The notes under the pieces: generated by a model
Databases searched by the model: none
Seen by the model: the letters and a program-made list of their open reading frames with translations, nothing else
What the model was told of the DNA's origin: nothing
Made by a program: the position numbers and the translations under genes
DNA from: a bacterium
Lineage (GTDB): Bacteria > UBP18 > UBA7526
Reading direction: 5' to 3'
DNA: 49,434 nucleotides
Assembly: GCA_030615855.1 (NCBI GenBank)
Contig: JAUWYL010000001.1
Location: 203,008-252,441, forward strand
In this document: positions 5,894 through 46,588 of the stretch, in pieces
Numbering within the stretch: position 1 is the first letter of the stretch
Layout: each line of letters opens with the position of its first letter

Positions 5894-6171
5894 TTATTGG
5901 GAGTGCATGGATTGAGTTGCATATCCCGGGAGTGAATTCCCTGAAAGGTAAGAGACAGATCATCAAGAGTATAAAGGAGAGAGTAAAGAATAGATTTAAC
6001 GTCTCCATTGCTGAGGTGGAAAAACAGGATCTCTGGCAGAGAGCCACTCTGGGCTTGGCCTGTGTGACAAATAATAAGGCCCAAGCAAATCGCACCCTCT
6101 CTAAAGTAATCCATTTTATAGAGCAGAATAGAAATATCTCCCTTACAGATTATGAGATAGAAATTATCTAA
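5890..6171 (+). CDS. DUF503 (YlxP-like) protein
   Basis: A 93-aa protein of the DUF503/YlxP family: the start [13 protein letters not shown], the segment SLKGKRQIIKSI and the later TLGLACVTNN are typical. The family has a ferredoxin-like fold and no settled function; its almost fixed position between infB and rbfA points to a role around ribosome assembly or initiation. The start overlaps the infB stop by ATGA. It carries no signal peptide or membrane segment, so it should be cytoplasmic. Confidence 0.9.
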   Translation: MIIGSAWIELHIPGVNSLKGKRQIIKSIKERVKNRFNVSIAEVEKQDLWQRATLGLACVTNNKAQANRTLSKVIHFIEQNRNISLTDYEIEII

Positions 6172-6202
6172 AGTGAACCGTGATCCGTGAACAGTGAACG
6201 GT
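6172..6202 (+). repeat. GTGAAC/GTGATC-type tandem repeat
   Basis: Short degenerate units GTGAACCGTGATC and GTGAACAGTGAACGG follow each other between DUF503 and rbfA. The same words occur at 34465-34515 and 46481-46513. No hairpin of note. Confidence 0.6.
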
Positions 6203-6218
6203 AAAAATGGGGTGAGAA

Positions 6219-6566
6219 ATGACGCGGAGGAGAGCTCAGCGGGCAGGAAGACTTATTCAGGAAGAGATTTCAAAGATCATTCAGAGGGAATTAAAGGATC
6301 CACGGATTGGATTTGTTACTATTACTGGTGTAGATGTTACTGATGATCTCCGCTATGCCAAGGTATTCATCACTGTTTTAAAAAGAGAGGAAAGGGAGAG
6401 GACTCTGGAAGGCCTGGAGCATGCCAAGGGATTTATTCGTAGGGAGATCGGACAGAGAATAAAAATGAAGTTCACTCCAGAGATTGAGTTTAGATTCGAT
6501 GAAACTATAGAGCGTGGAGCACACATAGAGGAAGTAATAAGAAAGATTAAGGAGAAGGAGAAGTGA
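6219..6566 (+). CDS. rbfA: ribosome-binding factor A
   Basis: Cold-shock 30S maturation factor. The protein is 115 aa, within the family range. The KH-like core shows RLIQEEISKIIQREL near the N-terminus, DPRIGFVTITGVDVT and DDLRYAKVFI in the middle, and the characteristic R(R)EIGQRIKMKFTPEIEF toward the C-terminus. GGGG seven to ten bases upstream of the ATG is the ribosome binding site. It follows infB and DUF503 as usual. Its stop overlaps the left arm of the CCCGTTAGA palindrome. Confidence 0.96.
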   Translation: MTRRRAQRAGRLIQEEISKIIQRELKDPRIGFVTITGVDVTDDLRYAKVFITVLKREERERTLEGLEHAKGFIRREIGQRIKMKFTPEIEFRFDETIERGAHIEEVIRKIKEKEK

Positions 6567-6677
6567 ATCCCGTTAGATGCTGGTCTTTTAATGAAGTGGA
6601 AATAAATGATACATTTAGGATCGCTATTAAAGATATTAGAAAAAGCTATATAACAATATTTGGGAGTCTAACGGGAT
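6567..6677 (+). repeat. CCCGTTAGA palindrome spanning the nrnA start
   Basis: ATCCCGTTAGA (6567-6577) is the exact reverse complement of TCTAACGGGAT (6667-6677), with 89 bases between. The right arm lies between the GGGAG ribosome binding site (6662-6666) and the first two bases of the nrnA ATG. Folding would hide the start codon. The same arms occur at 43904-44018 and, as CCCCGTTAGAAGT, at 29354-29421. Confidence 0.75.
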
Positions 6678-7653
6678 GAAGGAACTAAAAAAGATTGTCG
6701 AGGTTATCAGAGAGAATAAAAGTTTCTTTATTACTTCTCACATCAGGCCAGATGGGGATTCCATCGGCTCTCAACTTGCCCTGAAGAGGATACTGGAAAG
6801 GTTAGGAAAGGAAGTAATCATCACCAATCATGATCCGGCCCCTAAAATCTACGATTTTCTTCCCGGAAAAGAGAGCATCAAGCAAGAACTACCTAAGAAT
6901 AGAGAGTTCGATGTGGCCTTTATTCTGGATAGCCCAGAGCTCTCTCGTCTGGTGAGCACCGCAGAGATAATCGAGAAAGCAAAGGTCATCGTAAATATCG
7001 ATCACCATCTGGGGAATGAAAAGTTTGGAAAGTATAACTATGTTGATACTGAGGCTTCTGCCGTGGGAGAAGAGATATATGAACTGACAAGAGTAATGGG
7101 GTTTGAGATAGATAGGGAGATTGCCTTATGCCTCTATGTGGGCATCTTTACAGATACCGGTTCCTTCCGGCAGTCAAATACTACCCCTCGTACCCATGAG
7201 ATCGTGGCCCACCTCATGAAGATAGGAGATTTAAAGCCTGCCCAGATCACCCATCAGATATACGGGACCCAGCTTCCTTCTGCCATAAAGTTATTGAGCA
7301 TGACTTTGGATACCTTGGAGAGGAGCGGAGACGGCAGGATAGCTTGGATGACCATTACCGACGAGATGTTCAAAGAGACCGGAACCACCAAGGCGGAGAC
7401 CGAGAACTTCATCAACTATGTTCGTTCTGTGAAAGGAAGCGAGGTGGCCATTCTATTCACTGAGCTTGCTAAGGATGAGGTAAAGGTCAGTTTCCGCTCC
7501 AAGTCTAGTGCCGACGTTAATAGTATAGCCAAAATATTTGGAGGTGGAGGACATCTTCGCGCTTCTGCCTGCACTATAAAGGGAGATTTGGAGGAGGCAA
7601 AGAGGAAGGTGCTGGTTGAGGTAGAGAAGAGACTAAAGAAGGTTTACGGTTGA
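6676..7653 (+). CDS. nrnA: bifunctional oligoribonuclease / pAp phosphatase NrnA
   Basis: DHH-DHHA1 phosphoesterase that degrades short RNA and 3'-phosphoadenosine 5'-phosphate. Motif I is SHIRPDGDSIGS (21-32), the DHH triad is at 109-111 within NIDHHLGN, and the C-terminal DHHA1 glycine motif FGGGGH is at 288-293. At 325 aa it is full length. The position between rbfA and truB is the common one. GGGAG lies nine bases before the ATG, with a palindrome arm between them. The last codons and the TGA stop lie inside the first bases of a 138-bp repeat, so the C-terminus may have been reshaped by that element. Confidence 0.93.
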   Translation: MKELKKIVEVIRENKSFFITSHIRPDGDSIGSQLALKRILERLGKEVIITNHDPAPKIYDFLPGKESIKQELPKNREFDVAFILDSPELSRLVSTAEIIEKAKVIVNIDHHLGNEKFGKYNYVDTEASAVGEEIYELTRVMGFEIDREIALCLYVGIFTDTGSFRQSNTTPRTHEIVAHLMKIGDLKPAQITHQIYGTQLPSAIKLLSMTLDTLERSGDGRIAWMTITDEMFKETGTTKAETENFINYVRSVKGSEVAILFTELAKDEVKVSFRSKSSADVNSIAKIFGGGGHLRASACTIKGDLEEAKRKVLVEVEKRLKKVYG

Positions 7654-7780
7654 CCGACCCCGATGCTATTGGGGTGCCCGCGGTTGACGGTAAACAGCCC
7701 CGACAGCTGTCGGGACGGGCAAATCGAATAGTAGCTATTCACCAGCGGGGCAAGTAAAACGCGCCGCTCAACGGTAAACG
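7643..7780 (+). repeat. 138-bp multi-hairpin repeat, copy 2
   Basis: Second copy of the element at 1915-2052, same strand and same length, 130 of 138 bases identical. In the last hairpin, GGCGG/CCGCC of copy 1 has become AGCGG/CCGCT here, a compensated pair change. It starts inside the end of nrnA, contributes its stop codon, and ends seven bases before the truB ATG. Confidence 0.87.
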
Positions 7781-13727: not shown

Positions 13728-15800
13728 ATGGCCATAAAAGAGAAGAGAATCAGTGAGATAGAAGGGATTATTCTATTTGCTTTGACTATTTTTATTCTCC
13801 TTAGCCTTATCTCCTATGAGCCAACGGATATCGCTTATTATCAGCAGCCACCTAATATCCCGGCAGTGAACTGGATGGGGAAGGCCGGTGCTTATCTGGC
13901 CTTTGGACTGAACTTCGTCATGGGTTATGGCGCCTATCTCATTCTTCTGGTGACTCTTGTCTGGGGAATAAGAAGATTTCGGGGGATGAAGTTCCATAAG
14001 AAGGCCTATCGGGTCTTAGGAGTCTTACTCCTCTTAGTCTCAACCTGCACACTACTTTCCTCAAAATACTCTTTAATCTTAGAAAAAAGATTGGCATTGG
14101 GAGGACATCTGGGAATCGTTCTCTCCAATGGACTGAAGCAGATCTTTGGGGCTTCGGGTGCCTATCTCATTGCAGTAACGGTATTAGTCGTCTCTTTACC
14201 TCTGGCGGCAGAGGTCTCTTATCCCAAGTTCTTTTCTCTGTTGGGAAGAGGAATCCTCTCCTTCTTTCGGGGATTAATAAGGATATTTTCCCGGAAACCG
14301 AGACCAGCCAAGCCGATAGCAATTAAGAGGCCAGAGATTAAAGAGGAGAAGGTTGCTCCTACCCCTAAGAGAGTGAAGAAGGTAACCAAGAAGATTCCGG
14401 AGGAGGAGAAGGCCTATACTATGCCTGATCTCTCTCTTCTCTCTAAGCCAAAGGCAGAGGAGGCGAAAGAGGACCTTAAGGCAAAGGGTGCTCTCTTGGA
14501 AGAGACTCTCTCTGAGTTTGGGATATCGGCCAAGGTTATTGGCGCTCTTCAGGGTCCAGTCATTACCAGGTTTGAGGTCCAGCCGGCAAAAGGGGTAACT
14601 GTCTCTTCTATTACCTCTCGCTCTAATGACATCGCTCTGAAATTGGCTGCCCCCAGTATCCGTATCGAGGCCCCCATTCCGGGAAAGGCCGCCTTGGGGA
14701 TTGAGGTTCCCAACAAGAGGCCTTCCTTTGTCTATCTCTCAGAGATTCTGAGTACCAGGGAGTTCTATGAGTCTCCATCAAAACTTACCCTGGCATTGGG
14801 AAAGGACATAGCCGGTAGACCAGTAATCGCTAATCTGGCTACCATGCCCCATTTATTGATTGCCGGAACCACAGGAAGCGGCAAGAGTGTCTGTATAAAC
14901 TGCATCATAAATAGCATCCTGTTTCAGGCAGCACCAGATGAGGTGAAGTTCCTCTTAATCGATCCCAAGAGAGTGGAACTGAAGGCCTATAATGATAGCC
15001 CCTATCTTCTCACCCCGGTAATTACTGACCCCAAGAAGGCAACTTTTGCTCTGAAGTGGGCGGTGGGGACAGTAGAAGAGAGGTTCAAGTTATTCTCTGA
15101 GGCCGGGGCCCGGGATATCGAAAACTATAATGCCCTCACCAAGGTAGAGAAAATACCCTACATCATCGTGATCATTGACGAGTTAGCCGATCTGATGCTC
15201 GTGGCTCCTGTAGACTGTGAGCATACCATCACCCGACTGGCCCAGATGGCTCGGGCAGTGGGGATTCACATTGTCCTTGCTACCCAGAGACCATCTGTTG
15301 ACGTCATTACTGGTCTCATTAAGGCCAACTTCCCGGTGAGGATCGCCTTCCAGGTTGCGGCAAGGGTTGATTCTAGGATTGTCTTAGATATGAGTGGGGC
15401 AGAGAAGTTACTGGGAAGAGGGGATATGCTCTTCTCCGACCCTTCAAAGGCCAAACCAATACGTATCCAAGGATCGCTCATTACCGACCCTGAGATTGAG
15501 AGGATGGCAGAGTTTACCCGTTCTCAGGCAGAGCCGCTCTATGTGGAGGACATTTTTGAAAGGAGAGCCCCTTCCTTACCCAGCACCCCAGAGGAGGACG
15601 AATTATATCAGGATGCGGTGAGGGTGGTCATCCAGGCAAGAAGGGCCTCAGTCTCCATGCTACAGAGGAGATTAAAAGTAGGCTATGCCCGGGCAGCAAG
15701 ACTGGTCGATATGATGGAGGAGGAAGGGATAGTGGGACCTTATAGGGGAAGCAAGGTGAGGGAAGTACTGGCTGATGAAAGCTACCTCAAAAAAGAGTAA
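13728..15800 (+). CDS. ftsK: DNA translocase FtsK/SpoIIIE
   Basis: Septum-anchored ATP-driven pump that clears and resolves chromosomes at division. Four membrane segments lie at about 11-30, 54-82, 92-111 and 141-161; a short Lys/Pro/Glu linker (about 185-230) leads to the alpha and beta motor domains. Walker A is GTTGSGKS (380-387) and Walker B lies within IIVIIDELADLM near 480. A winged-helix gamma domain occupies about 625-690 (AVRVVIQARRASVSMLQRRL). At 690 aa it is the short-linker form. GTGAGG lies seven bases upstream of the ATG. Confidence 0.97.
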   Translation: MAIKEKRISEIEGIILFALTIFILLSLISYEPTDIAYYQQPPNIPAVNWMGKAGAYLAFGLNFVMGYGAYLILLVTLVWGIRRFRGMKFHKKAYRVLGVLLLLVSTCTLLSSKYSLILEKRLALGGHLGIVLSNGLKQIFGASGAYLIAVTVLVVSLPLAAEVSYPKFFSLLGRGILSFFRGLIRIFSRKPRPAKPIAIKRPEIKEEKVAPTPKRVKKVTKKIPEEEKAYTMPDLSLLSKPKAEEAKEDLKAKGALLEETLSEFGISAKVIGALQGPVITRFEVQPAKGVTVSSITSRSNDIALKLAAPSIRIEAPIPGKAALGIEVPNKRPSFVYLSEILSTREFYESPSKLTLALGKDIAGRPVIANLATMPHLLIAGTTGSGKSVCINCIINSILFQAAPDEVKFLLIDPKRVELKAYNDSPYLLTPVITDPKKATFALKWAVGTVEERFKLFSEAGARDIENYNALTKVEKIPYIIVIIDELADLMLVAPVDCEHTITRLAQMARAVGIHIVLATQRPSVDVITGLIKANFPVRIAFQVAARVDSRIVLDMSGAEKLLGRGDMLFSDPSKAKPIRIQGSLITDPEIERMAEFTRSQAEPLYVEDIFERRAPSLPSTPEEDELYQDAVRVVIQARRASVSMLQRRLKVGYARAARLVDMMEEEGIVGPYRGSKVREVLADESYLKKE

Positions 15801-16177
15801 CCAGTAACCAGTTAACAGTAAAAAGTAGGAAAGTAGGAAAGTAAAAGAGTATCAGATTACCAGTATATCAGATGGAGAAGGACAGATATCAGAATTCTAA
15901 AATCCTAAGCACGAAATCTCTCCGAGCCAGAGGCTCTCTGAGCCGGAGGCCGAAATACTAAACAAGCACAAATGTTCAAAATTCAAATGACCAAAACAAG
16001 AAACAAAGAATTGTCAGTTTAGAAATTTGAAATTAGGATTTAGATATTGTTTAGGATTTCGATATTAGAATTTCGAATTTACCAAATCTGATATTCTGAC
16101 CTTCTGAATACTCATTCTGATGTTCTGATAATCTATAGTTTTACTGGGACTGTAAACTATTAAAGTGAGGCAGAAAC
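15801..16177 (+). repeat. nested palindromic repeats, no gene (377-bp gap)
   Basis: The outer halves (15801-15890 and 16083-16170) are imperfect reverse complements made of CCAGTAACCAG, ATCAGAT and GGTCAG-like words, the same family as 18832-19016 and 44487-44699. Between them lies a second palindrome of AATTCTAAAATCC/GGATTTCGATATT character. Its first 30 bases (15891-15920) are identical to 23808-23837, and a GC-rich hairpin (TCCGAGCC.../...GGCTC, about 15921-15950) follows. No coding frame of note. The last bases hold the rodZ ribosome binding site. Confidence 0.75.
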
Positions 16178-18375: not shown

Positions 18376-18831
18376 ATGAAGTGGCTGATTAAGTTTCTGG
18401 CAACGGGATTCTATACTGGTTATACCCCCATTGCTCCAGGAACCGCAGGAAGCCTCATTGGGGTTATCATCTATCTCGGGATGTATAGGCTTTCTTGGCC
18501 TCTTTATCTTTTAATTCTTATCGTTCTTTCTCTTTTTGGAATATGTATTTCAAATAAAGCGACCATCTACTTCTTCAAAGAGAAGGATAGCAAGAGGATT
18601 GTCATTGATGAGATCATTGGCTTCCTGATCGCCATGTTCTTAATTCCCTTCAAGCTTAAATTCATCCTTGTGGCTTTCATTGTCTTTCGGGTGATTGATA
18701 TCTTGAAGCCCTTCCCCTTAAGAAGGTTGGAGAAGCTACCTGGTGGTTGGGGAGTGATGTGTGATGACCTCTTAGCCGGGGTCTATGCTAATCTAATCGT
18801 GCAAGCAATTAGATTAGCGAGTTTACAGTAA
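18376..18831 (+). CDS. pgpA: phosphatidylglycerophosphatase A
   Basis: Dephosphorylates phosphatidylglycerophosphate to phosphatidylglycerol. The 151-aa membrane protein has the PgpA hallmarks: GYTPIAPGTAGSL near the N-terminus, IVIDEIIGF in the middle (acidic metal-binding residues), FRVIDILKPFPLRRLE, and GVMCDDLLAGVYANL near the C-terminus. About three to four hydrophobic segments fit the known fold. It directly follows pgsA, so both steps of phosphatidylglycerol synthesis are paired. Confidence 0.94.
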   Translation: MKWLIKFLATGFYTGYTPIAPGTAGSLIGVIIYLGMYRLSWPLYLLILIVLSLFGICISNKATIYFFKEKDSKRIVIDEIIGFLIAMFLIPFKLKFILVAFIVFRVIDILKPFPLRRLEKLPGGWGVMCDDLLAGVYANLIVQAIRLASLQ

Positions 18832-19016
18832 CCAGCGAACAGTAACCAGAAAAACCACAGAATATCAGTATATCAGAACATCAGAATGAGAATTCAGAAT
18901 ACCAGATTTAATTTTATAATCTGACTTTCTGATAACTGACCTTCTCTATCTGGTAATCTGGTTATCTGATGCTCTTTTATTTTTTGCTGTTAACTGTAAA
19001 CTGGTTACTGGTTACT
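18832..19016 (+). repeat. long palindromic repeat, inverted relative to 44487-44699
   Basis: The left part holds CAGTAACCAG, AATATCAGTATATCAG and ATCAGAATGAG words; the right part holds their complements (TGGTAATCTGG, TTATCTGATGC, GGTTACTGGTTACT). The whole block matches the reverse complement of 44487-44699, with 29 identical bases at 18859-18887 against 44629-44657. The remaining bases to 19047 hold the cinA ribosome binding site. Confidence 0.8.
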
Positions 19017-19047
19017 TCAGGATACACTGGTTACTTTGAGGTAGATA

Positions 19048-22800: not shown

Positions 22801-23805
22801 ATGGTGAAGAAAGAGGAGAAGATTGAAAAGGCGAAGGAGAAGGCATTGGATTTGACCTTAGAGCAGATTGAGAAGAAGTATGGAAGGGGAGCCATTATGC
22901 GCCTTTCCAAGGAGAGGCCGCTAGAGAAGATTGCGGCCATTCCTACAGGAGCTCTACCCCTTGATCTGGCCTTAGGGATCGGTGGCGTTCCTCGGGGAAG
23001 GGTGGTCGAGCTCTTCGGGGCAGAAGGAGGGGGAAAAACTACCCTCTCTCTCCATATCATCGCCGAGGCCCAGAAGATGGGAGGAGAGGCGGCATTCATT
23101 GATGTGGAACATGCTATGGATCCTGCCTATGCCAGAGAGTTGGAAGTGGACTTAGATCATCTTTTAATCTCTCAGCCAGATTCCGGGGAGCAGGCTTTAG
23201 AGATCACTGAGGCTTTAGTTCGCAGTGGAGCAGTTGATGTCATTGTCATAGATTCTGTTGCTGCTCTAGTTCCCCGAGCAGAGATTGAGGGTGAGATGGG
23301 AGATGCCCAAGTCGGCCTACAGGCTAGGCTCATGTCCCAAGCACTGAGGAAATTAACTTCAGTGATTTCAAAATCCAACACCTGTGTGATATTCATCAAT
23401 CAGATAAGGATGAAGATCGGGGTGATGTATGGTTCTCCCGAGACCACACCGGGGGGAAGGGCACTTAAGTTCTACTCCACAGTACGCATGGATATCAGAA
23501 GGATCGGCCCTATAAAAGAAGGCCCGAATATTATCGGTAATCGCACCGTAGTCAAGATCGCTAAGAACAAGGTCGCCCCTCCCTTTAGGAGAGCGGAATT
23601 TGACATCATCTATGGCAAGGGAATTTCAAAGGAAGGCTGCCTCATCGATCTTGGTTTAGAAAAGGGAATTATCAAGAGATCCGGGGTTTGGTTTTCCTAT
23701 AAGAAAATTAAGGTCGGTCAGGGAAGAGAAGGGGTGAGGAGCTTCTTAAAGAAGAATCCCAAGATAGCCCAGGAGATCGAAAAAGAGATCAAAAAACTAA
23801 TCTAA
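22801..23805 (+). CDS. recA: recombinase RecA with atypical Walker A
   Basis: Strand-exchange ATPase and SOS co-protease. The 334-aa protein aligns along the family: [72 protein letters not shown] and [14 protein letters not shown]. The P-loop at 73-80 reads GAEGGGKT where nearly all RecA have GPESSGKT; it still fits GxxxxGKT, so it should bind ATP. The C-terminal tail is short. AAGGAGG lies seven bases before the ATG. No SOS box is evident, and the close spacing to the TPR gene suggests co-transcription. Confidence 0.96.
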
Positions 23806-23807
23806 TT

Positions 23808-24005
23808 AGAATTCTAAAATCCTAAGCACGAAATCTCCATCCTCCGCAGTAGCAGGCTACTGCTACGGAGGACGGGCGAAATCCGAAACAATTTCAAATG
23901 ACCAAAATCCAAATGTTCTAAACAAGGACAAATAGTTTTGAATTTTAATATTTGAATTTAGAATTTGTTTAGAATTTAGAGATTAGTATTTCGAATTTTA
24001 ACAAG
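23808..24005 (+). repeat. AATTCTAAAATCC-type palindrome with inserted hairpin
   Basis: Bases 23808-23837 are identical to 15891-15920. A GC-rich hairpin follows (CCTCCG at about 23841-23846 with CGGAGG at about 23867-23872, plus AGTAGC-type inner pairing). The right half (GAATTTAGAATTTGTTTAGAATTT, then TATTTCGAATTTT) is complementary in character to the left half. The equivalent block at 15891-16082 has an unrelated hairpin at the same place. No coding frame is seen. Confidence 0.7.
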
Positions 24006-28624: not shown

Positions 28625-29322
28625 AGACTATGGTCATCATCCCCACCTATAATGAGAGGGAGAACATCGGCCCCTTGCTTGATGAAATTATGAACCTTAA
28701 AGAAAATATCGAGGCTCTGGTGGTAGATGATAACTCTCCGGATGGCACTTGGAGAATAGTAGGAAATTATTCTAAGAAAAACCCTAGAGTTCATCTCTTA
28801 CGGAGAACCTCTGAGAGAGGACGGGGCCTGGCAGGAATAGCAGGATTTAAGTATGCTTTGGAGAATAAAGCAGATTATGTCATTGAGATGGATGGTGATC
28901 TTTCCCACAATCCAAAGTATATCCCAGAGTTCTTGAAAAAGATTGAGGATTGCGATGTAGTCATCGGCTCTCGTCTTCTTCCCGGTGGAGGGGAGGTGGG
29001 AAGAGGGTTTTTAAGGCGTCTAATCACCAGGCTGGCTGCCATCTACGTTAGGATTTTATTAGGATTCAAGGTTACAGATCCTACCTCCGGCTACCGTTGT
29101 TATCGGGGAGAAGTCCTAAGGGCTATAGATATTAAAAGCCTAAAGGCCAGGGATCCTTTCCTCCTCTCTGAGATGCTCCTCAGGTGCTATAAGAAAAGCT
29201 ATAGAATTAAAGAAATCCCCATCCTCTTTCAAAATCGGAAATCCGGTGCTTCTAAGATCGGCTGGAAAATCTTGATAACCTATCTCTTCAAGGTCCTAAA
29301 GTTGAGAGTTAGAGGGAAGTGA
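28621..29322 (+). CDS. GT2 polyprenyl-phosphate mannose synthase-like
   Basis: A GT-A enzyme similar to soluble dolichol/polyprenol-phosphate mannose synthases. It starts VIIPTYNERENI, has VVDDNSPDGT near 33-42 and the EMDGDLSH (DxD-like) motif near 90-97, then VIGSRLLPGG and DPTSGYRCYRG. At 233 aa it has no C-terminal membrane anchor. It probably loads a sugar on a polyprenyl phosphate for the GT-C enzyme two genes upstream. Overlaps with both neighbours (ATGA and GTGA) indicate one operon. Confidence 0.87.
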   Translation: MKTMVIIPTYNERENIGPLLDEIMNLKENIEALVVDDNSPDGTWRIVGNYSKKNPRVHLLRRTSERGRGLAGIAGFKYALENKADYVIEMDGDLSHNPKYIPEFLKKIEDCDVVIGSRLLPGGGEVGRGFLRRLITRLAAIYVRILLGFKVTDPTSGYRCYRGEVLRAIDIKSLKARDPFLLSEMLLRCYKKSYRIKEIPILFQNRKSGASKIGWKILITYLFKVLKLRVRGK

Positions 29323-30494
29323 GTATCCCGATCTTAATGTATCATCATGTAAACCCCGTTAGAAGTCCTCGTTGCAAACGAGGCATCCGTCCCCTTCGGG
29401 GTCGGATTACTTCTAACGGGGTAAATGAACTCCCAGATAGTTTTACTATTTCTCCAGATGATTTCCAGAGTCAAATGGAGTACTTAGCAAAAAAAAATTA
29501 CCAGACCCTCTTTCTGGATGAGTTAATTAATTCTTTAAAAGAGAGAAAAGAGAAGAGAAAGGTAGCCCTTACCTTTGATGATGGTTATCTTGATAACTGG
29601 GTCTATGCCTACCCCATCCTGAAGAAGTATAATCTAAGAGCAACCGTCTTTGTCATTACCTCTCGCATTAAAGAGAAGCCTATCTCCTATCGCCCTAACT
29701 TAGAAAATCTCTGGAAGAGGAAAGTTAAGAAAGAAGGGCTTCCCAGGATTTCTAATCACTATCAGAGTAATCTAAGATGTGTCAGGAATCTTGAAGGTTC
29801 AGATGATCATATTACCTGGGAAGAAGCGAAGAAGATGTCTCGAAGCGGTCTGATAGATATCCAGTCCCACAGTTATTTACACAGCTACTGTTATGTAAGT
29901 GATAAGATAGTCGATTATTATCGAGGACATAAGTGGCGCACGGGCTGGCTTACAGATGGAGATACAAGATTAGGCATCCCGATATATGAGGATAAGCCAG
30001 CCCTTGCTGGGCAAAGATATTTTGATGATCAGGACTTAAGAAATAGACTGGCAGAATACGTTTCCCAAAGAGGGGAAGGAAAATTCTTTGAAAAGGAGGA
30101 TTGGAAGAAGGAATTGGATGGGATAGTAGATGATTATCGGGTGCAAAATGAACTAAAAGATAATTATGAAACTTTAAAAGAGAGAGGGAAGCGAGTCAAA
30201 AGCGAGTTATTACTATCTAAAAATATTGTCGAAGAAAAACTAAATAAAGAATGTAACTTCATCGCCTGGCCAGGAGGGGCATACGATAGTTATTTAGTTA
30301 AGTGGGCTAGGGAGTGTGGCTATCAAGGAGCAGTAACTACCCAGCCAGGAGCGAATACTTCTAATACCAACCCTATGTATCTCAAGAGGTTTGAGATTAA
30401 GAGAAGGGATCTTGGCTGGTTTAAGAAAAGGCTTTTCATTTACTCCCATAATTTCACGGCCCGATTTTACCCCAAGATAAAGGGGTTATTTTAA
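29319..30494 (+). CDS. polysaccharide deacetylase carrying an in-frame palindromic insertion
   Basis: NodB-homology carbohydrate esterase (CE4). Core motifs: IPILMYHHVNP at the start, ALTFDDGYLDN near 88-98, IDIQSHSYLHSY with the metal-binding histidines, and WPGGAYDS late. Residues about 12-36 (VRSPRCKRGIR...SNGVN) match no part of the family and are encoded by a palindrome at 29354-29421; conserved sequence resumes at SFTISPDDFQSQMEYL. A second long insert (about 205-310) is Lys/Glu rich. The start is GTG with GTGA overlap. The deacetylase probably still folds, since the insertion is in the loop between the first strand and first helix. Confidence 0.85.
   Translation: MSIPILMYHHVNPVRSPRCKRGIRPLRGRITSNGVNELPDSFTISPDDFQSQMEYLAKKNYQTLFLDELINSLKERKEKRKVALTFDDGYLDNWVYAYPILKKYNLRATVFVITSRIKEKPISYRPNLENLWKRKVKKEGLPRISNHYQSNLRCVRNLEGSDDHITWEEAKKMSRSGLIDIQSHSYLHSYCYVSDKIVDYYRGHKWRTGWLTDGDTRLGIPIYEDKPALAGQRYFDDQDLRNRLAEYVSQRGEGKFFEKEDWKKELDGIVDDYRVQNELKDNYETLKERGKRVKSELLLSKNIVEEKLNKECNFIAWPGGAYDSYLVKWARECGYQGAVTTQPGANTSNTNPMYLKRFEIKRRDLGWFKKRLFIYSHNFTARFYPKIKGLF
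29354..29421 (+). repeat. three-arm palindromic element inside the deacetylase gene
   Basis: CCCCGTTAGAAGT (29354-29366) pairs perfectly with ACTTCTAACGGGG (29409-29421), 13 bp. Inside lie two hairpins: CCTCGTT/AACGAGG (29367-29383) and ATCCGTCCCC/GGGGTCGGAT (29385-29407, one mismatch). The element is read through in frame and its ends match the palindromes at 6567-6677 and 43904-44018. Confidence 0.9.
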
Positions 30495-33318: not shown

Positions 33319-34476
33319 TTGAAAAAAGTAAGCATGAAAGTTGCTTTAGTTCGTCAGAGTTATCATAAATACGGAGGGGCGGAGAGGTATGTAAGTTACC
33401 TGGCAGAGGGGTTCTTGAAAAGAGGCCATAAGGTCCACGTCTTTGCCAGAAAGTGGGATCCCAGTGCCCCAAAAGGGATTATCTTCCATAGGGTTCCTAC
33501 CCTAAAAGGCCCCTCTTTTTTAAAAGCTTTGAGTTTTGCCTCCAATGTGAAAAGATTATTGGAAGGGAAGAAATTTGATATCATTAATAGTTTTGATCGC
33601 ACTCTCTATCAGGATGTTTACCGTGCTGGAGATGGGGTTCATAGAGAGTGGAGGAAGAGACTTTTAGAGATTACTCCTAATCTCCTAATCAGACTCTTGA
33701 TCCTTATCAACCCTTTACATCTAAGCCTCCTTTTCTTAGAAAAAAGAATCTTTCAAGAGAATAATTATAAGAAGATAATTGCCATATCAAAGAAGGGTAA
33801 AGAGGAGATTATAAAGTATTACGGAGTCTGTCCAGAGGATATTATTGTCATCTATAATGGGGTGAATCTGGAGGAGTTTCATCCCAAAAATAAGGCCTTA
33901 TTCAGAGAGGAGATAAGAAAAGAATTTGGTATTTCTGAAGAGGAATTTCTCGTTTTGTTTGTGGGAAGTGGCTATAGGAGGAAGGGGTTGAGATACTTGA
34001 TTGAGGCCGTTTCTCTCCTAAAGGACGAAAAACCATTAAAAGTATTAGTAGTGGCAAAGGGCAAGAAAAGAGCGTACTTAAGATTAGCAAAAAAGCTGGG
34101 AATAAGAAGTAAAATAATCTTTGCTGGGGGAAGAAAAGACTTAAGAAAGTTCTATGCAGCAAGTGATCTTTTCGTTCTTCCCACTATCTATGAACCATTT
34201 GGCAATGTCTGTCTGGAGACCCTGGCCAGTGGGCTTCCCATTATTGTGAGTAAAGCGAGCGGAGCAGCAGAGATTATTACAGAAGGAGAGAACGGGCTCC
34301 TCCTAAAGAATCCCAGAGATCCCCAAGAACTAGCTAAAAAGATTAAACAAACTTTTGATAATAATTTTAGAGAAGAATTAAGTAAAAACGCCCGGATTTT
34401 AGCTGAGAATTTTACCGTGGATAAGAATGTAGAAAGGACATTAAAAGTCTACCAGGAAGTGATCGGTGAACAGTAA
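33319..34476 (+). CDS. GT4 family glycosyltransferase (WaaG-like)
   Basis: A 385-aa GT-B enzyme with the features of LPS glucosyltransferase I-type proteins: VALVRQSYHKYGGAERYVSY, ISKKGKEEIIKYYGV, then YRRKGLRYLIEAVSLL and TIYEPFGNVCLETLASGLP (E-x7-E). The start is uncertain: TTG 33319 has AAGGA ten bases upstream; ATG 33334 lacks one but gives the usual MKVALVRQ opening. It begins a new transcription unit after the divergent methyltransferase. Its last codons (VIGEQ stop) are inside a 14-bp tandem repeat. Confidence 0.85.
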   Translation: MKKVSMKVALVRQSYHKYGGAERYVSYLAEGFLKRGHKVHVFARKWDPSAPKGIIFHRVPTLKGPSFLKALSFASNVKRLLEGKKFDIINSFDRTLYQDVYRAGDGVHREWRKRLLEITPNLLIRLLILINPLHLSLLFLEKRIFQENNYKKIIAISKKGKEEIIKYYGVCPEDIIVIYNGVNLEEFHPKNKALFREEIRKEFGISEEEFLVLFVGSGYRRKGLRYLIEAVSLLKDEKPLKVLVVAKGKKRAYLRLAKKLGIRSKIIFAGGRKDLRKFYAASDLFVLPTIYEPFGNVCLETLASGLPIIVSKASGAAEIITEGENGLLLKNPRDPQELAKKIKQTFDNNFREELSKNARILAENFTVDKNVERTLKVYQEVIGEQ

Positions 34477-34518
34477 TCGGTGAACGGTGATCGGTGAACG
34501 GTGATCGGTGAATAGAAT
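34465..34518 (+). repeat. 14-bp tandem repeat overlapping a stop codon
   Basis: Units begin at 34465, 34479, 34493 and 34507, consensus GGTGAACGGTGATC; the first reads GGTGAACAGTAATC and provides the TAA stop of the GT4 gene. About 3.9 units. A run of ATCTGTG words follows at about 34565-34610. Confidence 0.8.
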
Positions 34519-34625
34519 AGCTATCAAGCAATTAAGCCATTAAGAATAAGGATCAAGCATTCAGTATCTGTGATCTGTGTTAATCTGTAATAAATCTGTG
34601 CGAATCTGTGTCTAAGGAGAGAAGC

Positions 34626-43900: not shown

Positions 43901-44018
43901 ATGAATCCCGTTAGACCTTTCTAAAGTCTAACGGGATTAAATCGGAAAATTTTGGAATATGCCAAGTAAGTTATCTTTTTATACTCTTTACTCGTAAACT
44001 AAGGAGGTCTAACGGGAT
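43901..44018 (+). repeat. CCCGTTAGAC palindrome with a third arm at the start of the DUF4254-like gene
   Basis: AATCCCGTTAGAC (43904-43916) pairs with GTCTAACGGGATT (43926-43938), 13 bp around a CTTTCTAAA loop. A third element GTCTAACGGGAT (44007-44018) repeats the right arm, beginning in the last base of the AAGGAGG ribosome binding site (44001-44007) and ending in the ATG. The left arm can thus pair with either right arm, and the second choice hides the start codon. A seven-codon frame (MNPVRPF, 43901-43924) covers the left arm. Confidence 0.75.
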
Positions 44019-44223
44019 GAAAAAGACATTTGCTCAACTGGTGAATGAGTTAACAAAGGTAAATATTGCATTATGGCATGAGGAAGATAAGGCGAGAAGT
44101 GAAGATGATAAAGTTGTGGCTCAGGCGAAGAGAGAAATTGATAGATTGAATCAGAGAAGGAACGATCTCATTGAGGCTATTGATGAATATGCTATTACCT
44201 TGAGCAAGGGGAGAAATAAATAA
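44017..44223 (+). CDS. small DUF4254-like protein, copy 1
   Basis: A 68-aa helical protein: [24 protein letters not shown] then [19 protein letters not shown]. This L...N..LWH.ED plus [12 protein letters not shown] pattern is that of DUF4254 proteins, which usually are larger and sit beside GT9 heptosyltransferases in LPS loci. No function is known for the family. AAGGAGG is nine bases before the ATG. It overlaps the next gene by one base (TAATG). No signal or membrane segment is seen. Confidence 0.75.
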
Positions 44224-44486
44224 TGGCGGAGACTATTGGGAGTTTAGTGGATAAAATAAGCATCTTTGAACAGAAGTGCTTCCATATGAAGGAAGAGACA
44301 AAGAGAAAGGATGTTTCTAAAAAGCATGTCGGAGAATGTAAAAAGAAACTTTTGATATTAAAGAGGCAGCGCAACGACTTAGTAGAAGAACTTGATGAAC
44401 TATTCATGGATATTCTATCTGGAAAGAAAAAGCTAAAGGTCTATAAGCAATTCAAGATGTATAATCTACCAGAGTATATAAAATAA
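44223..44486 (+). CDS. small DUF4254-like protein, copy 2
   Basis: An 87-aa helical protein: ETIGSLVDKISIFEQKCFHM, KKLLILKRQRNDLVEELDEL and a C-terminal SGKKKLKVYKQFKMYN. It shares the scheme of the preceding gene (ET/AQ-LVDK-hinge-WH/FH, L..QRNDLVEELDE), so the two are probably paralogues of one DUF4254-like motif. The basic C-terminus KKLKVYKQFKMYN is extra. AAGGGGAG lies upstream. Both small genes lie between gmhB and the WaaC-like GT9, which suggests a part in heptose transfer; this is inference. Confidence 0.72.
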   Translation: MAETIGSLVDKISIFEQKCFHMKEETKRKDVSKKHVGECKKKLLILKRQRNDLVEELDELFMDILSGKKKLKVYKQFKMYNLPEYIK

Positions 44487-44699
44487 AGAAGTTTACAGTA
44501 ACCAGTTTACAGTTTACAGCAAAAAAGTAAAAGAGCATCAGATAATCAGATTATCAGATGGAAAAGGTCAGTTATCAGAAGGTCAGATTGAAAACATTGA
44601 ATCTGGTATTCTGAATTCTCATTCTGAGATTCTGATGTTCTGATATACTGATATTCTATGGTTTTGCTGGTTACTGTTCGCTGGTTACTGGTTACTAAG
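44487..44699 (+). repeat. long palindromic repeat, inverted copy of 18832-19016
   Basis: The left part (GTTTACAGTAACCAGTTTACAG, ATCAGATAATCAGATTATCAG, GGTCAGTTATCAG) and right part (CTGATGTTCTGATATACTGA, GGTTACTGTTCGCTGGTTACTGG) are complementary to each other and together match the reverse complement of 18832-19016, with 29 identical bases at 44629-44657. Outer parts also match 15801-15890 and 16083-16170. No gene is present. Confidence 0.8.
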
Positions 44700-46475: not shown

Positions 46476-46480
46476 CTCTT

Positions 46481-46513
46481 ACAGTGAACAGTGATCGGTG
46501 AACAGTGAACGGT
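46481..46513 (+). repeat. GTGAAC/GTGATC-type tandem repeat
   Basis: CAGTGAACAGTGATCGGTGAACAGTGAACGG-type units, matching 6172-6202 and the 34465 array in word content. It lies in the 5' leader of gmhA. Confidence 0.6.
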
Positions 46514-46588
46514 TTATCTGTGGTCATCAGCGTTTCCTAAGCCCACGCAGTGAGCAATACAAAGAAATCCGCGTCTAAGGAGAGGGAA

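Follow-up and report, generated by a model that had tools for sequence, protein, structure and literature searches.

In the accessible literature palindromic sequences lying in frame within coding regions are described mainly from Rickettsia, Wolbachia and one archaeon, and no mover is known for them. The Rickettsia palindromic elements (RPE) and their Wolbachia counterparts are palindromic repeats found in frame in unrelated housekeeping genes, where they are predicted to be translated (PMC10969869, PMC2996958). RPE of R. conorii carry the tetranucleotide CGTC at one end (PMC3733652). Two further groups of small repeats are relevant, the type II MITEs, in which similarity is confined to the terminal inverted repeats (PMC10969869), and the REP/BIME palindromes. 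Inverted repeats also occur inside protein genes of Nematomorpha mitochondria; these are mitochondrial, up to 284 bp long, and no sequence link to the family described here has been shown (PMC6649704).

The family to which the present locus belongs resembles RPE in that palindromes sit in frame at different places in unrelated protein genes and are predicted to be translated and to leave the gene functional. It differs from RPE in several respects. The CGTC tag is absent: the ends are CCCC/GGGG, and CGTC does not occur among the listed duplicated flanking 4-mers. The three-arm class measures 62–80 bp compared with about 150 bp in RPE, there is a clear 4-bp target duplication (which may or may not set the family apart from RPE), a three-way junction is conserved, and the carriers belong to many phyla, whereas RPE are confined to one order. 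A sequence-only reading of the locus had cited RPE as precedent for an element that appeared unrelated to them in sequence. That it is unrelated in sequence is a presumption only; the tag being absent, we describe the element as working like an RPE without filing it as one.

With type II MITEs the family shares terminal inverted repeats, short target direct repeats, lack of coding capacity and moderate copy number. The 13-bp perfect terminal repeats, the fixed 4-bp duplication and the empty site in five of five sister genomes meet the definition of this class, except for the autonomous partner (PMC10969869). It departs from MITEs in that no autonomous relative was found for the family, the elements are far shorter than the reviewed MITEs and frame-neutral, the interior keeps one architecture despite sequence turnover, and the same ends recur across phyla. 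REP/BIME sequences are likewise short imperfect palindromes with many copies that are possibly read as folded DNA. Unlike these, the family has no GTAG/CGTC tag, is accompanied by a target duplication and often lies in genes; there is no Y1 transposase in the host family and no RAYT gene flanked by the repeat.

The window, i.e. the whole stretch of 49,434 nucleotides that was analysed, contains a polysaccharide deacetylase gene (29319..30494, + strand; CE4, PF01522, E 1e-23; 391 aa), which starts with GTG and overlaps the upstream glycosyltransferase gene. The palindromic element occupies 29354..29421 (68 bp) on the + strand and is the reverse complement of the canonical orientation. All its parts are given here on the + strand. 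The left arm CCCCGTTAGAAGT (29354..29366) and the right arm ACTTCTAACGGGG (29409..29421) of the outer stem are paired at 13 of 13 positions. Between them lie a 17-nt inner hairpin (29367..29383; hp2 in canonical orientation), a conserved single-base junction spacer at 29384 (C here, G in canonical orientation), a 23-nt inner hairpin (29385..29407; hp1 in canonical orientation) and a conserved unpaired junction base at 29408 (T here, A in canonical orientation). The element is bracketed by the 4-bp target-site duplication TAAA (29350..29353 and 29422..29425). Its minimum free energy is -44.8 kcal/mol, compared with -19.9 +/- 2.9 kcal/mol in shuffled sequences (z -8.7). The three-arm palindrome with a perfect 13-bp outer stem that the sequence-only reading had noticed is thus confirmed. 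The observation also reaches further than was then described; that reading had not noticed the duplicated target site, the conservation of the three-way junction, the insertions at start codons or the spread across phyla.

In our interpretation the segment belongs to a family of non-autonomous transposable elements of miniature size, which persist in genes through frame-neutrality, scarcity of stops and as a tolerated loop (probability roughly 0.8). The ends CCCCGTTAGA...TCTAACGGGG are common to 135 collected copies. For the 10-mer CCCCGTTAGA the 1.375-Mb genome has 29 occurrences, compared with 3 of the reversed control, and the 10-mer is strongly over-represented also in genomes G004 (103 vs 1) and G048 (140 vs 3). 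When 84,980 species genomes were scanned, at least 115 loci matched the pattern CCCCGTTAGA-N(34-64)-TCTAACGGGG; they were grouped at phylum level by record title. Among the matches listed the pattern was present in at least twelve named groups, in each case with at least the number of loci given: Patescibacteria, 48; Planctomycetota, 13; Omnitrophota, 10; Desulfobacterota/Delta, 8; Bacteroidota, 5; Cloacimonadota, WOR-3/Stahlbacteria, Nitrospirota and Nitrospinota, 4 each; Elusimicrobia, 2; KSB1 and Ratteibacteria, 1 each. Eleven loci had no group name. The carrier genomes are nearly all draft MAGs, and MAG contig titles may mislead through contamination; the breadth of the spread does not depend on any single title. 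Of 286 evenly sampled Patescibacteria genomes, 18 (seed genome included) had the exact pattern and none had the reversed control. The plasmid and phage collections contained no match to the element; viral contigs numbered only six.

An exact 4-bp duplication of the flanks was observed in 69 of 130 usable copies, compared with about 10 (maximum 19) when the right flanks were permuted. Duplications of 2 and 3 bp showed no excess in the same 130 copies; the test compares the last k bases on the left with the first k on the right, which means that a match is expected at the true length alone. All duplicated 4-mers fit the pattern YNNR, TAAA/TTTA and TGAA/TTCA being the most frequent. Some copies were nested, each with its own 4-bp duplication (locus L098, 92–257 containing 117–181; locus L142, 4721–4797).

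Two observations on the distribution of copies are recorded separately. The approximately 140 ends in the Patescibacteria genome G048 (L150–L153) belong mostly to 31–43-bp hairpins with the conserved flanks TGAGCA / TAAGGTTT, a larger local repeat built upon the same ends. Type IV pilus genes (PilB/GspE, PilC, PilM) and tuf/fusA adjoin copies in several phyla, seemingly often, but this was assessed without a proper control.

The enzyme responsible for movement is inferred. Acting in trans, it would cut the target with a 4-base stagger and join the two inverted ends; the folded junction might be its recognition feature or a by-product of element copying. PF01797, PF01609 and PF13701 were absent from all six genomes of the window's family, other transposase families being outside the search. 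We looked for an autonomous element among the long end pairs of the fetched loci and found nested or adjacent small elements only. A 2-kb end pair in genome G043 encloses pilus genes and two separate small insertions without a transposase; a 3.3-kb end pair in G004 (L228) was left out of this search. Clustering of the genes beside copies returned housekeeping and pilus genes and no common enzyme. Multi-copy IS elements and long repeats are often lost from MAGs. The shortest elements (29–44 bp) are hard to fit into a classical two-end synaptic complex.

The very short, folded and covarying structure would also suit a REP-type palindrome moved through folded single-stranded DNA by a RAYT/IS200-type (HUH tyrosine) transposase, and Y1_Tnp (PF01797) genes are in fact present in several carriers outside the family. 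We regard this explanation as improbable. None of these Y1_Tnp genes is framed by element ends, the six family genomes have none, and we know of no HUH transposition that generates target duplications. The REP tag is GTAG or CGTC (PMC3733652), whereas here a variable YNNR is duplicated on both sides.

Dense folding into a three-way junction was found in 46 of 176 copies. The junction set of 45 copies analysed further consisted of copies derived from these 46 and of additional three-arm copies. In 32 of the 45, with members in the window's family as well as in Patescibacteria, Elusimicrobia and Nitrospirota, the layout is strictly 1-1-0: a 13-bp outer stem, an unpaired A, hairpin 1, a G, and hairpin 2 adjoining the outer stem. 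The outer stem is paired at 100%, hp1 at 93% and hp2 at 97% in the junction set, compared with 61–63% (maximum 73%) when the 3′ arms were dealt randomly. The junction bases are nearly constant and the arm sequences covary, with three or four different pair types at many inner stem positions. The inner hairpins are mostly 17, 20 or 23 nt long. The junction structure is thus preserved while the sequences of the arms turn over; candidate causes are recognition of the folded DNA, a role of the RNA, or a copying process that produces palindromes. The junction copies were selected for this fold, so that the pairing figures are raised, and copies within one genome family are related rather than independent; the argument is carried by the identical layout and junction bases across phyla. 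Many of the 176 copies have the same ends and no three-way junction; some lineages can therefore do without the fold. No match was found when the window was searched against Rfam.

Recognition of the fold by an enzyme is an inference. A bolder proposal, which we put forward only tentatively and hold to be rather doubtful, is that the elements form an undescribed class of very small mobile elements present in many phyla, whose folded three-way DNA or RNA junction, and not an internal sequence, is recognised by the enzyme and whose arms of 17+3k nt are tuned by selection for insertion, translation and gene restart. Were this true, such elements would repeatedly supply proteins with new segments in nature.

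Copies through which a reading frame is open made up 19%, compared with 62% of random windows. Gene interiors are thus depleted of the element, indicating that insertion into genes is selected against but tolerated. That most copies lie outside gene interiors, that the fold is very stable and that PilB/PilC genes recur near copies could also mean that the palindrome serves mainly as a signal at the RNA or DNA level, be it a terminator, an element of mRNA stability or a DNA uptake sequence, and that its coding location is incidental. We give this little credence, since it leaves the 4-bp duplications, the empty sites, the nested copies and the 3n length unexplained; a signal role could exist as a secondary function. 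The DNA-uptake-sequence version was dropped because of the 4-bp duplications and the empty sites.

At each element end only two of the three frames are free of stops (PVR...SNG and PLE...LTG), and passage of the host frame needs a length of 2 mod 3, so that length + 4 is a multiple of 3. All 33 copies whose open frame extends across 40 codons on either side meet this condition. In a test independent of the element's own frame, removal of the element and one duplication rejoined an ORF in 37 copies, and length + 4 was divisible by 3 in 33 of these, the other two length classes having 2 members each. With shifted control joins 21 and 19 cases were open, which means that part of the 37 is due to chance. 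The 3n rule was also met by 13 of 14 three-way-junction copies outside recognisable ORFs; a few of this group, the window copy among them, lie close to the end of a gene. Since these copies obey the rule and the hairpins are mostly 17, 20 and 23 nt, the data point to a frame-neutral design of the element and not merely to the survival of inserts that happened to fit. Elements without a stop in any of the four usable frames were only mildly enriched (16/28 compared with 34% in simulations). In our model in-gene copies would persist by virtue of the length rule and the two stop-free frames per end, and the element would encode a short hydrophilic basic loop that a host protein can tolerate.

Frame-neutrality bears on the possibility that the segment is a very small self-splicing intron, removed from the mRNA, or a stretch that ribosomes skip. 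Known bypassing elements have strong hairpins inside coding sequence, and in this the palindrome is like them. Neither removal nor bypassing requires a 3n length or an open frame, yet 33 of the 37 copies keep the frame and nearly all are open; together with the lack of an Rfam match in the window this makes such a process very unlikely.

The mobile-element reading was supported by the comparison of the deacetylase with its orthologues. The element is open in frame with the gene, and with one TAAA it makes up 24 codons (NPVRSPRCKRGIRPLRGRITSNGV), which agrees with the estimate of about 24 foreign residues made from the sequence alone. The insert lies near the N-terminus, directly after MYHHV. 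Orthologues from five of five sister genomes of the same family, 79–80% identical, lack exactly these 24 columns. The sisters read MYHH-VNEL where the window reads MYHHVN-insert-NEL, and deletion of 72 bp (68 bp and one TAAA) restores CAT CAT GTA AAT GAA CTC, the HHVNEL of the sisters. The AlphaFold model of the deacetylase (pLDDT 36.5) was of no use for placing the insert, and its structural place is inferred from homologue alignment only. Translation of the insert is likewise an inference, with no expression or protein evidence; that the deacetylase carrying it still works is suggested only by the open frame and the conserved residues.

Related in-frame copies were detected in many unrelated proteins of the six family genomes. 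Judged from sequence, the carriers putatively include NAD(P)HX epimerase, RodA/FtsW, an AmmeMemoRadiSam protein, a geranylgeranyl-reductase-like protein and MurA. The case of MurA is confirmed by solved homologues: the protein of G001 has about 22 extra residues at one place where solved MurA structures have 2. G004 and G005 share two insertions, one in RodA and one in an exonuclease-like protein; in the RodA element the second hairpin has switched in place between 17 and 23 nt and the frame stayed open. A native loop of the deacetylase, for which the open frame alone speaks and which conservation of the segment in distant deacetylases would have indicated, is ruled out by the empty sites in all five sisters, by solved relatives (PgaB/BpsB-type) that align from residue 36 onward only and by the related sequences in unrelated genes. 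The in-frame mobile palindrome postulated by the sequence-only reading is supported by the empty sites, the 4-bp duplication, the in-frame copies elsewhere and the preservation of frame.

A distinct group of insertions affects start codons. The left junction cuts a start codon (ATGAA, ATGGA or the like) in 22 copies. Of these, 16 contain an in-frame internal ATG, giving proteins that begin with M-x(n)-SNGVK or similar. Start-codon copies would survive by carrying or re-creating an ATG. The other two elements of the window, both on the + strand, are of the latter type and have T-CCCGTTAGA...TCTAACGGG-A ends. The second element (6568..6676, 109 bp) is flanked by TGAA at 6564–6567 and 6677–6680; the upstream rbfA-like gene has its stop codon, TGA, within the left TGAA, and the right end regenerates an ATG at 6676 for a DHH phosphoesterase-like gene. 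The third element (43906..44017, 112 bp; TGAA at 43902–43905 and 44018–44021) sits inside the start codon ATGAA and regenerates an ATG at 44017; in the sister genomes G002 and G004 this site is empty. In both cases the ATG is re-created from the last base A and the TGAA duplication. The ends of the deacetylase element had been said to recur in non-coding copies at 6567–6677 and 43904–44018. The recurrence of the ends holds with the boundaries given above; the description as non-coding does not, as these copies stand at gene starts and re-create ATG. There are three ways to survive a hit at a start site: read-through from the old start, a new start and a re-created start. Start-codon copies of approximately 77–82 bp with their own ATG occur in unrelated proteins of different phyla (L064, L070, L083–L085, L117, L122, L133–L135 and others), and T...A-ended variants that have hit a start or stop codon, duplicated TGNN and re-created an ATG at the right junction are present also at L059, L077 and L101.

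In the accessible literature, where subscription journals are poorly represented, we found no description of this element family, and the hits to the element sequence stood in unrelated contexts. We provisionally consider the family undescribed. As defined by its ends, duplication and fold, it is now seen in Patescibacteria, Omnitrophota, Planctomycetota, Nitrospirota and others. A search for the mobilising enzyme now has a defined target in the ends CCCCGTTAGA/TCTAACGGGG, the duplication and the fold. The many independent insertions with empty sites offer material on how proteins tolerate or use inserted segments. For MAG annotation, NPVRS...SNGV segments should be taken as a warning of inserted sequence that is not native protein.

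The window also contains other repeats. Intergenic arrays of CAGTTTACAGTAACCAG / ATCAGAATATCAG, with direct and inverted copies, and arrays of GTGAACAGTGAACGGT were noted; the sites of these repeats are 15791–15920, 16016–16130, 18820–19018, 23805–23998, 44485–44696, 6169–6213, 34462–34520 and 46480–46524. A direct repeat of 138 bp, 94% identical between its two copies, is located at 1915–2052 and 7643–7780.
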